Source: Pseudolysobacter sp. (GTDB taxonomy: Bacteria; Pseudomonadota; Gammaproteobacteria; Xanthomonadales; Rhodanobacteraceae). Taken from it: 10,197 bases of DNA. Position 1 is the first letter of the stretch. Every line of letters starts with the position of its first letter. The position numbers and the translations under genes were made by a program. Below are positions 2,319 to 8,526 of the stretch, piece by piece. The DNA is taken from NCBI GenBank assembly GCA_025351985.1, contig JANXUW010000584.1, positions 1-10,197 on the forward strand. Direction: 5' to 3'. Below the pieces are notes generated by a model, which was given only the letters and a program-made list of their open reading frames with translations, had not been told where the DNA came from and searched no databases.

Positions 2319-4550
2319 TCAATCTGCATCAGGAATATCGCCGTCAATATCGCCTTCTTTCGGGCTACCGGCAGCATCGATCTTCTGCACTTTTTTCTGC
2401 AAGGCGATAAAGCGCGGGTCCTTGCGCAGCGCATCCCAATCCGGATCGTCGACCAGCAGTTTGCCGTAGACCATGCCGTGCGTGATGGCATCGTCCAGCG
2501 CTTGCAGGGCGTTATCGGATTGGCCGCGTGATGCGAGCAGGCATGCCAGGTTGTAACGCGGTAGCCACGTCTTTTCGCGCATGGTGACGGCCTGATGCAG
2601 CAGTTCTTCTGCTTCATCGAGCTTGCCGGCGCGACGCGCGCTGGCACCGGCCTGCAACAGGCTGCGGAAATCCTTGGACTGGTGCGCAAAGGCTTCGCGA
2701 TATTCTTTCAATGCAGCCTCATAATCGCCTCGCTCGAAATACAAATCGGCGAGACGACGACGCAACGGCGGGAAACCCGGATCGATCAGCATCGCCTGGT
2801 CATACCAGCGTTGTGCGGCGACATCATCACCGCGCAAGGTCGCGATCAGGCCGAGCTGGCCCATCGCTTCGACAAATTGCGGCGCAATCTTGAGCGCTTC
2901 CAGATTGTAGCGTTCGGCCTCATCGAGTTTGCCTTGCATCAGGGCGATTTCGCCGAGCATGCCAAACAGCCGAAATTGCTTCGGATCCTGTGCCAGCAAC
3001 TCCAGATATTGCGCACGCGCCTCATCGTATTTGCCGCGTTTGAATTCGACCAACGCAAGCACGCTGCGCGCGGAGAAATGCCGCGGCATATCGACAAGGA
3101 TGGCCTTCAGCGCCTTCTCCGCCGCCGGCCACTTGCGCTGCTGCGCGAAATGCCGCGCGTCTTCCAGCTTGCTATAGATCGCGATGCCATCTTTCGGATC
3201 GATGCCGGCGGCTGAAGCGCGATCGGTTGCGCCCTGCAGATAACCAAGCGATTGCAACATCTCCATCGTCTCTTTCGACATCGGATCGGTGCGCGCTGCG
3301 ATCGCATGTTTGGCGCTGTCCTGCATGAGCTTTTCGAGCTCGACATCAAGCGCGTCGGCCTTGGTCTGGTACTTCGCATCGCCGTACAAATTGTGCAGCT
3401 CGCCGGGATCATTCTTCAGATCGTAAAGTTCGGGTCGCGGCGCGCGGATAAACGTATAGCCATCCTTGCGAACGGCATATAACGGCGCCATGCCGAAATC
3501 GAGTTCGGCAAGTTTGGACTCCGAATATTGCGGCAGATCAACGATCGGTGTATCGCCACGCACCATCGCGGTCAAATCGACACCCTGCGTTTCCTTTGCT
3601 CCCGGTACATGCGCGAGCTCAAGCAAAGTCGGTGCGATATCGACATTGCGCACCGGTCCGGCATAAACATTGCCTTCGGGGAAACGCGGCGGATAACGCA
3701 CGATCAACGGCACGCGCGTGGTGGCGCGATAGACAAAAATGGCGTGGGTTTTTTCGCCGTGCTCGCCGATGCTTTCGCCGTGATCGGCGGTGAATACAAA
3801 GATGGTGTGGTCGAGCTCGCCACTCGCACGCAGCCCATCGACCAGACGGCCGAGCTCGCGATCGGCGTAAGCGATCGACGCATCGTAGGAACTCGGCGCA
3901 AGCACCGTCGCCCACGCCGGCGGCTTGTGCGGTTCGTGCGGATCAAACAGATGCACCCACAGGAAAAACGGATTCTTCTTTGTCTGTTTTTCGCGCCCGT
4001 CGTACCACTCCATGACACGATCAATGGTCTCGGCCGCCGGTCGTTCGCGGATCATGAACAACTTGGGCTCGGTTTCTCCCCAAAGGTCATCATCGTAGAC
4101 ATCGAAGCCTTGGTCGAGCCGGTAACGACGATTCAGCACGATCGCCGAGACATAAGCCCGCGTGTCGTAACCGACCGCTTTGAAGCGCTCCGCCAACGTT
4201 ACCGCGTCATCGCCGAGCGCAAACGATCCGTTGTCGCGTACGCCGTGTGCCGGCGGTAACAGTCCAGTCATGATGCTCGAATGCGACACCGCCGTGATCG
4301 GCGCGGAGGCAATCGCATTTTCAAAACGTACGCCTTCTGCGGCAAGGCGATCCAGCGTCGGTGTATGCGCCAGCGCCATACCGTAACTGCCGATGTGATC
4401 GGCACGCGTGGTATCAAAGGTGATGATCACGATGTTGGGTTTGCCATCGTCGTGATGGCACCCGGCACTACCGAGCAAGGCCGCGATCAGCGCCATGAAG
4501 GCGAAGGAAGAACCACGACGCGATACAAGTTCAACGAGACGGAAAGGCAT
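2319..4550 (-). CDS. Sulfatase-fold (AlkP superfamily) lipoprotein with C-terminal TPR repeats
   Basis: Predicted lipoprotein of 743 residues. The start at 4550 gives a basic n-region (MPFRLVELVSRRG), the hydrophobic core FAFMALIAALL and a lipobox-like GSAGC with Cys31. The frame stays open to a TTG at 4604 with another ATG at 4583, and none of these has a good Shine-Dalgarno, so the start is uncertain. The catalytic half (about residues 35-390) shows the sulfatase metal ligands: DTTRAD (Asp46, Asp51), TADHGE (Asp256, His257) and EKTH (Lys267, His269). At the nucleophile position the sequence is ITAVSHSSIMTG, so Thr86 replaces the Cys/Ser that is converted to formylglycine in type I sulfatases, and the CxPxR motif is absent. 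Thr is the nucleophile in related phosphotransferases such as LTA synthase and PEtN transferases. Residues about 455-690 form TPR-type helical repeats (DEARAQYLELLAQDP, DEAERYNLEALKIAP). The tail is acidic. Substrate unknown; phosphoester chemistry is at least as likely as sulfate hydrolysis. Confidence 0.88.
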   Translation of the reverse strand: MPFRLVELVSRRGSSFAFMALIAALLGSAGCHHDDGKPNIVIITFDTTRADHIGSYGMALAHTPTLDRLAAEGVRFENAIASAPITAVSHSSIMTGLLPPAHGVRDNGSFALGDDAVTLAERFKAVGYDTRAYVSAIVLNRRYRLDQGFDVYDDDLWGETEPKLFMIRERPAAETIDRVMEWYDGREKQTKKNPFFLWVHLFDPHEPHKPPAWATVLAPSSYDASIAYADRELGRLVDGLRASGELDHTIFVFTADHGESIGEHGEKTHAIFVYRATTRVPLIVRYPPRFPEGNVYAGPVRNVDIAPTLLELAHVPGAKETQGVDLTAMVRGDTPIVDLPQYSESKLAELDFGMAPLYAVRKDGYTFIRAPRPELYDLKNDPGELHNLYGDAKYQTKADALDVELEKLMQDSAKHAIAARTDPMSKETMEMLQSLGYLQGATDRASAAGIDPKDGIAIYSKLEDARHFAQQRKWPAAEKALKAILVDMPRHFSARSVLALVEFKRGKYDEARAQYLELLAQDPKQFRLFGMLGEIALMQGKLDEAERYNLEALKIAPQFVEAMGQLGLIATLRGDDVAAQRWYDQAMLIDPGFPPLRRRLADLYFERGDYEAALKEYREAFAHQSKDFRSLLQAGASARRAGKLDEAEELLHQAVTMREKTWLPRYNLACLLASRGQSDNALQALDDAITHGMVYGKLLVDDPDWDALRKDPRFIALQKKVQKIDAAGSPKEGDIDGDIPDAD

Positions 4551-4690: not shown

Positions 4691-5894
4691 TCAGACGCGT
4701 CGGCGCAAGGTGTAGAAGCCACCAGCGACAAGCACAACGCCGAGCATCAGCCAGACCAATGCGAGCGGCGACAGTGACGGAACCTGTGCTGGCGGCGGGA
4801 TGGCCGCAGCAAAGTTCGTGACCTGCGCTCTTTCCGTCGGTGTCATGCACTCAAGGCTAGTCGCAGGCAACGCCATCAGTCTTGCTGCGTTCGTTTTTGC
4901 GGCAGCATTCGAGGCCAGTGCGGTAACGAAATTCATGATGATCTTGGTCTGACCCGGGTTCAAAGTTACTGTGTAACCCCACCACGGTTTATCGTTACCG
5001 TCGACGAAATAAAGAGCCGCGACCGGCGTCGCAGCGGTCGCTCCCTGCAGGACATGCCCCAGGCGCGGGTCAGAGCTGGTAGTGCCGGAATAATTCTGGA
5101 ACGAGGTGACCCACTTGTCGGCCGCGGTTGGCGTAAGCGAACCCGTGGATGATCCGGTGATCTTGGTGTTGCTGTCCGACCCCAGATTGTTGGACGTCAT
5201 CAGACTGAACGTTAGCGGTACGGTACCGGTATTTGTGAGCACGTTCATTGAACGCGAGAAGCTGTCATCGGTCGGCACGTAGATCTTGCGGCTGACACTC
5301 AGCACTCCAGCCGCAGCCACGGCGTTGACTCCCGTTGGCGGCGACGCTCCTATCGTCTGCGTCGGAAACACGATCTGGCGACCGTTGCATTCCGTAGTTG
5401 CCGGGCCGTTCTTGTTGTACATGGCAAAGCTTGCATTGCCCGTTTGGCACCGCGCAAGCACACCCGTGAGACTAACGCAAATCGAATCGTAGCCATCGAA
5501 CGAATCATTAAGCATTGAATTGGTAACGCCACCGTTCATCGTCGAGGCCGCGACCGCATGCGTGTAGCTGGCTTCGGACATGGCGCCCGATGCCGAGCTG
5601 GTGGTAGTGAACGTGATATTGGTATTGATGAAATACTTCAAACCCGACGCATCGATCAGCGCTTTCGAACCGGTCGCGTTCGGATGCACTCCGCCGAGCG
5701 GCAGTCCGTGGTGCTTTTCGCCCGGCTTGGCGGTATGTGCGTTGATTGGCGTACCGGCGACCTGTCGGCCTGGCACGGCCTGATTCTTGTGCTTTGCTGC
5801 AAGACCATCAGACTCAAGCACATACACATCGGCGTGCGCAGCTTGCGCCAGCACGAGTAAAGCGCAAAGCGCAAAGCGAAATTATTCGTTTCAT
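4691..5894 (-). CDS. Secreted protein with IPTL-CTERM-like tail, frameshifted in its signal peptide by a 7-bp repeat
   Basis: Short paralog of the gene at 6125-8515. The natural start is ATG 5894 (MKRIISLCAL), with GGGGG 5 nt upstream. This frame runs out of the conserved protein after the repeat at 5858-5878 and soon reaches a stop. The conserved protein continues in a neighbouring frame from about 5881, whose only start is a GTG at 5854; starting there would lose most of the signal peptide. Deleting one 7-bp unit gives a 398-residue protein with the signal MKRIISLCALLVLAQAAHA. Restored residues 20-350 form the shared domain: a His-rich motif (HTAKPGEKHHGLPLGGVHP) and cysteines at about 137, 147, 167 and 347, likely two disulfides. 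Compared with the paralog it has a 14-residue insertion after QTIGA. The C-terminus, VPSLSPLAL plus a hydrophobic stretch and LRRRV, resembles an IPTL-CTERM/PEP-CTERM-like sorting tail. As read, the gene is OFF or a pseudogene. Function unknown. Confidence 0.85.
5858..5878 (-). repeat. Heptanucleotide tandem repeat (three units) inside the signal-peptide coding region
   Basis: On the minus strand there are two copies of CGCTTTG followed by CGCTTTA, i.e. three consecutive 7-bp units. Because 7 is not a multiple of 3, each unit gained or lost changes the reading frame. With three units the downstream gene is out of frame; with two it is in frame with ATG 5894. This is a classic slipped-strand mispairing configuration, although short in copy number. 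Confidence 0.9.
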
Positions 5895-5899
5895 GACTA

Positions 5900-5904
5900 C
5901 CCCC
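5900..5904 (-). promoter_or_regulatory. Shine-Dalgarno-like GGGGG of the short paralog
   Basis: GGGGG on the minus strand ends 5 nt before ATG 5894. It supports 5894 as the true initiation codon rather than the internal GTG at 5854. The G-run sits at the same place as the much longer G10 run of the paralog. Confidence 0.6.
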
Positions 5905-5928
5905 AAAGTTATGGAAACTTTCGTACCT

Positions 5929-5950
5929 CTTAACTTTAATATAAGTTAAG
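5929..5950. promoter_or_regulatory. 8-bp-arm inverted repeat upstream of the short paralog
   Basis: CTTAACTT (5929-5936) and AAGTTAAG (5943-5950) are perfectly complementary arms separated by 6 bp. The repeat is centred about 45 bp before ATG 5894. It lies in an AT-rich island within GC-rich DNA, and the minus-strand sequence contains TATATT, which could be a -10 element. It is plausibly an operator overlapping the promoter. No matching -35 at ideal spacing was found, so the promoter itself is uncertain. The rest of 5951-6055 holds nothing I can support. Confidence 0.45.
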
Positions 5951-6055
5951 GAATTGCGCCATACCTCAATGCGCACTGAAGCAAATTCAATAGCGGCGAG
6001 AGCAACTGGACGAAGAATGCTACCGCTGCTCCTCACAAAATTCGGCTCCGTTTGC

Positions 6056-6090
6056 AAAAAAAGAACGTCCGTCTATGGCGACGGACGTCC
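6056..6090 (-). terminator. Strong intrinsic terminator of the long paralog gene
   Basis: On the minus strand, a perfect 9-bp stem (ACGTCCGTC, 6080-6088, with GACGGACGT, 6065-6073) surrounds a 6-nt loop and is followed within 2 nt by seven T residues (6056-6062). It starts about 35 bp after the stop at 6125 and separates the long paralog from the promoter region of the short one. Confidence 0.92.
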
Positions 6091-6124
6091 TGTTATCTTC
6101 GCGCAGAAGCAAGCGCAGTATTGG

Positions 6125-8515
6125 TCAGACTCGACGCCGCAATGCAAGGAATGCAATCGCCGCGAACGCCAGTGCCAGCCATGCCAGGCTCAGTGGCGAA
6201 AATAGCGGAATCGCGACCGCAGGCAATGCCGCGACAACAAACACCGTCGGACCCACACCGCCAGGAAAACTCGTCACGGCCGATGCATCATTGCTGCCGT
6301 TACCGTCGCTGTCGTAGCTGATTGTGCCCTGGTTCGATACGGTATGGCCAGCAGCGCTTGGCAGAATCGTCGCGGTGATGGTGATGGTCGCGCTTGCGGA
6401 CGATGCCAGTGCGCCGTTCCAGCTCACGGTATTGGTTCCGACATTGCCAACCGCCGTGCCAGAGGTCGCCGAGGCGCTGACCAACTGCAAGGTGGCTGGC
6501 AGTACGTCAGTAAACTCGTTGCCGGGATTGTCGGCCTGCGGGCCCGCGCCGCTATTTGTGAGCACGATGTTGTAAGTCACCGTATTACCAACGGTGAAGG
6601 CGCCGCTCACGCTTTTTGTACCCGCGACATTTGCCCCGCCCGTCACCGCGAAAACCGTCGGATCGGCAGTACCTGCCACGGCCGGATCATCGGTAACGGC
6701 GGACGCATCATTGGTTCCATTGCCGTCACTGTCATAGCTGATCGTGCCCTGGTTCGAGACGTTCTGACCGGCAGCGCTCGACAAGATTGTCCCGGAGATG
6801 GTGATGGTGAAACTGCCCGACGTCGCCAACGCACCATTCCATGTCACGGTATTGGTTCCGACGTTGCCGACCGCGGTGCCGGAAGTTGCTGTGGCACTGA
6901 CCAGTTGCAATGTCGCCGGCAGTACATCGGTGAACTCGTTGCCGGGATTGTCGGCCTGTGGGCCCGCGCCACTATTCGTCAGCACGACGGAGTAAGTCAC
7001 CGTATTGCCGACAACATACGTGCCACTCACGGTTTTGGTACCCGAGATGATCGAACCGCCGGTGATGACAAAGGTGGTTGGATCAGCGGCGCCCGCTAGC
7101 GCCGGATCGTCCGTCAATGCCGAAGATTCATTGGTGCCATTGCCATCCGCATCGAAGAACGCCGTACCTTGATTCGAGACCGTGCTGCCCACGGCGCCCG
7201 AGGCGATCGCGACATTGATCGTGATCGTGACCGAACCAGCGGCAGGCACGCTGCCGTTCCAATGCACCGTGCCACCCGAAGTTGTTGCCGTGCCACTCGT
7301 CGCCGTTGCCGAGACGAGCGTCAGATTTGCCGGCAACACGTCGGTGAACTCATCTCCGGGATTATCTGATTGCGCGCTTGCGCCAGTATTGCTCACGACG
7401 ACCGTATACGAACCGGTGCCACCGACGTAGGTGTTGCCGCTATAGGTTTTTGTTGCTTGCAACTTGGCTGGTCCGACGAAATTGCTCACCTCCGATCTTT
7501 CCGTAGGCGTCAGGCATTCCAGACTGGTCGGCGGAAGCGCCGTGAGGGCTGCCGCTTGCGTCGCGGCGGCAGCTTTTGTTCCCTGCCCGGTGACAAAGTT
7601 CATGAGGATCTTGGTCTCGCCAGGATTCAAAGTCACGGTGTGAGCCCAATACGGAAGATCGCTGCCATTTGCGAAATTGATACCTGTCAAAGGCGTTGCC
7701 GCACCCGGCCCCTGCAAGACATGGCCCAGACGTGGTTCGGTACTGGTGGTGCCTGAAAAATTCTGGAAAGTTGTAACCCAGGTATCGGCAGTCGTTGGCG
7801 GGATCGTGCCACTGGAAGATCCCGTGATTATCGTATTGGCGTTGGAACCCAGGTTGTTGGACGATATGACGTTGAAAGTAACCGGCGCGCCGCTGGTGTT
7901 GGTAAACACGTTGAGCCAGCGCGCAAATGCATCATCGGTCGGTATATAAATTTTGCGGTTGACGCTCAAGGCGCCTATCGTCTGTGCCGGGAATACGAAC
8001 TGACGGCCACTGCATTCATTGGTCGGCGCCGCGCCGTTCTTGTTGTAAATAGTGTAGTTCGCATTGCCGGTCCGGCACCCTCCCACCGCTCCAGTGAAAC
8101 TCACGCATATCGCGCCATAACCATCAAACGCGTTACTAAGCGTGCTGGCTATAGTGCCGCCAGCGACGGTACTGGCCACGACCGCGCGTGTATAGCTGGC
8201 GGACGACACGGCACCCGATGCCGAGCTGCTGGTACTGAAAGTGATGTTGGTATCAATGAAATATTTCAAGCCAGAAGCATCGATCAGCGAAATCGAGCCG
8301 GTCGACGATGGATGAACTCCTCCCAGCGGAATACCGTGGTGTTTCTCGCCCGGCTTGGCGGTATGGGCATTGATCGGTGTGCCGGCGACGTGCTTGCCTG
8401 GCACGGCGTGATTGTTGTGCTTGGCACCGAGCGCATCCGATTCGAGTACATAAACATCGGCATGCGCGAATTGCGCCAGCGCAAAAAATGCACACAACAG
8501 AGCTATACGTTTCAT
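6125..8515 (-). CDS. Secreted protein with three DUF11-type repeats and IPTL-CTERM-like tail
   Basis: Predicted exported surface protein of 796 residues. The Sec signal peptide is MKRIALLCAFFALAQFAHA. Residues 20-350 are the domain shared with the gene at 4691-5894, including HTAKPGEKHHGIPLGGVHP and cysteines 137, 147, 168 and 334. Residues about 352-487, 490-627 and 630-760 are three DUF11/conserved-repeat (Ig-like) modules. Each carries DNPGxEFTDVLPAxLxLVSA, a HWNG or TWNG/SWNG strand, and SNQGT followed by the possible Ca-binding loop DxDGNGxN. Modules 2 and 3 are nearly identical with a 140-residue offset; module 1 is more diverged. The tail, IPLFSPLSLAWL plus a hydrophobic segment and LRRRV, resembles IPTL-CTERM sorting signals. 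DUF11 repeats usually form stalks that project surface domains, so an adhesin-like role is plausible but unproven. The start is preceded by a G10 run. The gene lies 22 bp after a sulfotransferase gene and ends at its own terminator. Confidence 0.9.
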   Translation of the reverse strand: MKRIALLCAFFALAQFAHADVYVLESDALGAKHNNHAVPGKHVAGTPINAHTAKPGEKHHGIPLGGVHPSSTGSISLIDASGLKYFIDTNITFSTSSSASGAVSSASYTRAVVASTVAGGTIASTLSNAFDGYGAICVSFTGAVGGCRTGNANYTIYNKNGAAPTNECSGRQFVFPAQTIGALSVNRKIYIPTDDAFARWLNVFTNTSGAPVTFNVISSNNLGSNANTIITGSSSGTIPPTTADTWVTTFQNFSGTTSTEPRLGHVLQGPGAATPLTGINFANGSDLPYWAHTVTLNPGETKILMNFVTGQGTKAAAATQAAALTALPPTSLECLTPTERSEVSNFVGPAKLQATKTYSGNTYVGGTGSYTVVVSNTGASAQSDNPGDEFTDVLPANLTLVSATATSGTATTSGGTVHWNGSVPAAGSVTITINVAIASGAVGSTVSNQGTAFFDADGNGTNESSALTDDPALAGAADPTTFVITGGSIISGTKTVSGTYVVGNTVTYSVVLTNSGAGPQADNPGNEFTDVLPATLQLVSATATSGTAVGNVGTNTVTWNGALATSGSFTITISGTILSSAAGQNVSNQGTISYDSDGNGTNDASAVTDDPAVAGTADPTVFAVTGGANVAGTKSVSGAFTVGNTVTYNIVLTNSGAGPQADNPGNEFTDVLPATLQLVSASATSGTAVGNVGTNTVSWNGALASSASATITITATILPSAAGHTVSNQGTISYDSDGNGSNDASAVTSFPGGVGPTVFVVAALPAVAIPLFSPLSLAWLALAFAAIAFLALRRRV
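6236..7462 (-). repeat. Three tandem DUF11-coding repeats, about 414-420 bp each
   Basis: Units are at about 7055-7462, 6635-7048 and 6236-6628. Units 2 and 3 align at exactly 420 bp offset (for example ATTGGTTCCGAC at 6430 and 6850) with long stretches of near identity. Unit 1 is offset by 414 bp at its DNPGxEF motif and is clearly diverged. All offsets are multiples of 3, so unit number could change by homologous recombination without breaking the frame. Confidence 0.9.
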
Positions 8516-8516
8516 T

Positions 8517-8526
8517 CCCCCCCCCC
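8517..8526 (-). repeat. Homopolymeric G10 tract abutting the ATG of the long paralog
   Basis: Ten consecutive C on the plus strand are G10 on the sense strand, separated from ATG 8515 by a single A. It replaces a normal Shine-Dalgarno; a ribosome could pair with Gs at the 5' end of the run at usable spacing. Length changes would alter that spacing, or promoter geometry, but not the reading frame, because the tract lies outside the coding region and after the stop of the upstream gene. Confidence 0.9.

Follow-up and report, generated by a model that had tools for sequence, protein, structure and literature searches.

The shorter of two tandem genes on the minus strand of the window (the whole 10,197-nucleotide stretch of DNA analysed, which is the entire contig C41 of a Pseudolysobacter sp. 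genome) is probably, with a probability of roughly 0.6, a recent and private loss-of-function allele produced by the addition of one 7-bp repeat unit. The two genes are paralogues, a long one that is intact and a shorter one that is frame-shifted. The features on which this reading is based are the following.

6125..8515, minus strand: intact tandem paralogue (the long gene, 796 aa), with an N-terminal domain common with the short gene and DUF11-type repeats
5815..5894, minus strand: start region of the short gene, with ATG 5894, a 26-codon dead-end frame (the end coordinate is computed from the 26 codons) and a GGGGG run just upstream
5859..5878, minus strand: perfect period-7 run of 20 bases (2.86 units) within the signal-peptide codons, which shifts the frame
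4691..5854, minus strand: body of the short gene, an open frame of 387 codons with GTG 5854 as first permitted start, encoding a beta-rich domain and, C-terminally, a hydrophobic helix and then RRR

The frame opened by ATG 5894 ends at a stop after 26 residues, and the remaining protein lies in another frame, which is open for 387 aa from GTG 5854 to 4691 and has a TAA as its upstream limit (by eye). The shift, with the remaining protein in another frame, had been reported in a first-pass annotation of this DNA and was confirmed, as was the existence of the heptamer repeat; its extent had been given as three units at 5858-5878 and has to be corrected, one imperfect base having been counted with the perfect run. 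The same annotation had stated that the leader obtained by removing one unit is identical to that of the intact paralogue at 15 of 21 positions, which agrees with our recount by eye.

The 97 genomes of the family that were searched include a single one of the same genus, that of Pseudolysobacter antarcticus. The comparison with it shows what the change consists of. Its syntenic short gene (L040 4813-6066, minus strand) is like that of the window in gene order, leader and repeat motif, and codes for a protein 73% identical; it is intact, with a repeat run of 15 bases (about two units) and an open frame, whereas the window gene has 20 bases and is shifted. The alignment of the two leader DNAs contains a single gap of 7 nt, so that a change of one unit alters the frame of the short gene. 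The GGGGG run upstream of ATG 5894 is common to both genomes, and in each of them the 14-base motif of two units was found at the short-gene locus only. The leader of P. antarcticus, which is intact as it stands, is 21 residues long and aligns without gaps to that of the window's paralogue, with 14 of 21 residues identical (by eye).

A search of 5.8 billion proteins gave 609 matches, the best 120 of which were listed. Leaving aside the entry of the window itself, the five best matches listed (P0002-P0006, with identities of 73-83%) are intact and keep the leader, with an identical length of 21 residues from Met-Lys to ADV (by eye, these sequences being seen as proteins only); in P0002, P0005 and the P. 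antarcticus frame, a longer predicted N-terminus encloses the 21-residue leader. All six closest relatives listed (P. antarcticus and P0002-P0006) thus agree in leader length, and the window genome differs. Of three relatives further away (L037-L039, whose best segments are 55-58% identical), L037 shows no long run of a frame-changing period within the 75 nt that follow its first ATG, and it is the only one informative for this search, since the ATG picked by script in L038 and L039 is probably not the true start. The extra repeat unit is private to the window genome among the relatives examined. As for the same species, the searches scored the 7998 candidates that had the most words in common with the short protein and the 7993 for the long one; besides the window's own entries, the nearest proteins were 83% and 81% identical, respectively. 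No further genome of the species was found among the 97 family genomes or in these protein searches.

The body of the short gene shows no decay. It contains no stop in 387 codons and, with respect to P. antarcticus, its dN/dS is 0.166 (385 codons); the equivalent stretch of the intact paralogue has 0.173 (349 codons). Both values are rough and averaged over a long time, as dS is about 1.1. The alignment has 64 columns with a uniformity of 98% or more across the other 57 proteins, and the window protein departs at none of them; the same holds for 30 of the 58 rows, and two rows depart at 7 and 8 of these columns. The lack of stops, taken alone, sets a loose age limit, because the probability of finding none under neutrality is 0.26 at 5% divergence and 0.07 at 10%. 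An old pseudogene was rejected on the basis of these three results (no stop, dN/dS of 0.166, none of the 64 columns departed), the only weakly opposite sign being the end branch of the window protein, which at 0.099 is the longest of a five-row group (0.054-0.070 for the four nearest rows) and may hint at some relaxation of selection. The description of the gene in the first-pass annotation as one unit out of frame and otherwise intact is borne out by the intact syntenic orthologue and by the undecayed body. The frame shift is either recent or affects a gene that is often in frame and reversibly shifted. The undamaged body fits a fresh mutation and a switch alike, because a gene often in frame would look equally undamaged.

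The tract itself was compared with chance by means of 2000 Markov shuffles of the window, considering the frame-changing periods 4, 5, 7, 8 and 10. A period-7 run of 20 bases occurred in none of the shuffles, and a 20-base run at any of these periods occurred in 38. In a 400-kb sample of P. antarcticus, 27 period-7 runs of at least two units were counted; a single one of them reaches 20 bases or more, the other 26 being shorter. The 20-base run is therefore unusual for one 10-kb window and not exceptional genome-wide, and the chance gain of a unit somewhere is to be expected, since two-unit heptamer runs are common in P. antarcticus. Within the first 75 nt of the 336 frames of at least 200 aa in this sample (open frames, unverified as genes), a two-unit heptamer was found in three and a heptamer run of at least 20 bases in none.

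According to the reading that we prefer, a two-unit repeat would already have been present in the signal-peptide codons of the ancestor, and one 7-bp unit would have been gained by slippage or by a very short tandem duplication. This gain would have shifted the frame recently, in the window lineage, and the exported protein would no longer be made; the extra unit could be lost again, as for any short tandem duplication. Among the alternatives offered by the first-pass annotation, the recent fixed duplication is the one that fits best. The gene would then be an ordinary loss-of-function allele. A word of caution applies to the way in which such loci are recognised, in that every short tandem duplication of recent origin gives the appearance of a gene that one repeat unit keeps out of frame.

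The main claim of the first-pass annotation, that the gene is phase-variable and presently OFF, implies that the heptamer tract often and reversibly changes its number of units by strand slippage, switching export, and that the genome was caught in the off phase. We consider this unlikely, and give a recent mutation the higher weight as the cause of the frame shift. The tract is intragenic and near the 5' end, its unit length is not a multiple of three, and the protein is of an exported type with an undamaged coding part, all of which would suit a switch. In this respect the window gene is like the heptanucleotide loci described for Haemophilus influenzae (PMC2651432), which have a 7-bp unit and an exported or surface-type protein, in some cases with the tract inside the reading frame and a frameshift; these loci, which include hmw1A/hmw2A and TonB-dependent receptor homologues, vary between strains. 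The tracts described there, however, mostly have 6 to 38 units, and the hmw tracts act mainly in the promoter (PMC2651432); the one genome of the species available here has 2.86 units, and no variation is known for the species. Nonetheless, one H. influenzae heptamer tract is given with 1 to 7 units, so that a low count in a single strain is compatible with a switch (PMC2651432).

Short tracts of three units can also convert, as reported for mutL of Salmonella (PMC2955026). The mutL gene of Salmonella and E. coli is like the window gene in having about three short tandem units, the gain or loss of one of which inactivates or restores it; its unit is of 6 bp and keeps the frame, as opposed to 7 bp in the window, and its conversion was tested experimentally (PMC2955026), while the window locus is known from its sequence. 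Moreover, MutL is not a surface protein. Against the switch, the 20 perfect bases fall below the three uninterrupted units that two surveys set as the minimum for 7-bp repeats (PMC2651432; PMC5953494), and a single leader length is found across the six closest relatives listed, with 15 repeat bases in P. antarcticus. If the locus were a switch after all, the known range of repeat-based phase variation in surface proteins would widen to include a free-living relative of Lysobacter and a large, uncharacterised family of proteins whose tails resemble IPTL-CTERM.

It is still less probable that the shift is an error of assembly or consensus, or that the assembler settled on a minority allele, in an organism that mostly carries the in-frame gene. 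The sequence comes from a single fragmented genome (766 contigs, completeness 85.98%, contamination 4.14%), and the short gene, with its undecayed body, is the only one disrupted among the five genes common with P. antarcticus, which would suit such an error. On the other hand, the other four contain no stop wherever they could be aligned, which indicates that the contig is not error-ridden, and no contig with an alternative allele was found in the genome. A tract of 20 bases is also short for an assembly error in copy number. Finally, leaderless expression from GTG 5854 as a cell-internal protein is hardly credible: the frame is open from this codon, but no purine-rich site precedes it (by eye), the leader is kept in the six closest relatives listed, and a signal-like head (by a permissive pattern) is present in all 119 other proteins among the best 120 of the 609 matches.

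As regards the nature of the protein, the intact relatives have a hydrophobic N-terminal leader, and the structure model contains a confident beta-rich domain (mean pLDDT 82.6), with residues 1-14 and 25-59 poorly modelled. The fold matches are galactose-mutarotase-like and YidC-like beta domains; the function is not nameable from the fold, because the TM-scores by query length, at most 0.43 among the 50 matches listed, are too weak. The IPTL-CTERM model (PF18203) gave no match to the short protein at an E value of 0.01 and matched 13 of the 58 aligned relatives. By eye, the tail has the layout of IPTL-CTERM, a hydrophobic stretch and then RRR. A predicted tail of this kind is described on an S-layer protein of Methylomirabilis lanthanidiphila (PMC8671808). 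The product of the short gene is probably exported and anchored to the membrane or the surface; it is in this sense that we infer the label of surface protein.

A second repeat is found next to the start of the intact paralogue:

8517..8526, minus strand: run of ten G (G10 tract) that lies one base upstream of ATG 8515, the start codon of the long gene

The matching site of P. antarcticus has six G followed by TCAAG. Considering that the two surveys place the cut-off for poly-G tracts at nine (PMC2651432; PMC5953494), this G10 tract would be a better candidate for a switch than the heptamer. G runs of at least nine number four in the window genome and three in P. antarcticus; the 400-kb sample of the latter contains none, as compared to a Markov mean of 1.0. 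One of the other tracts of the window genome, also G10 (3865-3874), lies on contig C195 in a gene (L061 1783-2119, around 3647-3983) between the upstream part and an IPTL-CTERM signal that scores over Pfam's cut-off and is out of frame with the upstream part. Compared with its P. antarcticus counterpart, which is an open frame of 259 aa, this gene is short of about 140 internal codons (by eye), and given this loss it may simply be decaying. On contig C717 (L063 1921-2010), a G10 tract precedes a 166-aa frame, whose head is signal-like, by about 80 bases. For the fourth tract, no long frame of the same strand starts within the next 400 bases downstream. That two of the four tracts lie at genes of the exported, C-terminally anchored type was noticed post hoc and is a lead only. 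It is very doubtful that the Pseudolysobacter lineage switches a set of exported, C-terminally anchored proteins by simple repeats, namely the heptamer in the signal peptide, the G10 tract at the ribosome-binding site of the neighbour and, in a third gene, the G10 tract just ahead of the sorting signal; if it did, the surface of a free-living bacterium would vary by means of repeats.

With respect to the organisation of the locus, the order of response regulator, sulfatase, short gene, long gene and sulfotransferase is identical in P. antarcticus. The two paralogues are separated by a further feature:

6062..6091, minus strand: terminator-like hairpin between the two paralogues (consensus match only)

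Terminator-like sites in 5850-6200 were two, against a shuffle mean of 0.7, and the hairpin suggests that the paralogues are transcribed separately, as far as a predicted site can tell; no promoter-like site was found by scanning the same interval. When the genome was searched for a second copy with the short protein, the sole two matches were the gene itself and its paralogue, both on this contig, and the long protein gave four further matches, which cover the DUF11 part only. No relatives of the short gene were found in 72,556 plasmid records. The tandem pair may also occur in a third lineage, as the longest contig given for P0004 and that given for P0123 have the same length, 33,709 bases. 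The DUF11-type repeats of the intact paralogue are encoded at 6272-7144 by a 420-base tandem repeat of 2.1 copies. A minus-strand gene of 502 aa (814-2322), with a weak CSLREA match, sits between the response regulator and the sulfatase in the window, and these two genes directly adjoin in P. antarcticus, without the 502-aa gene.
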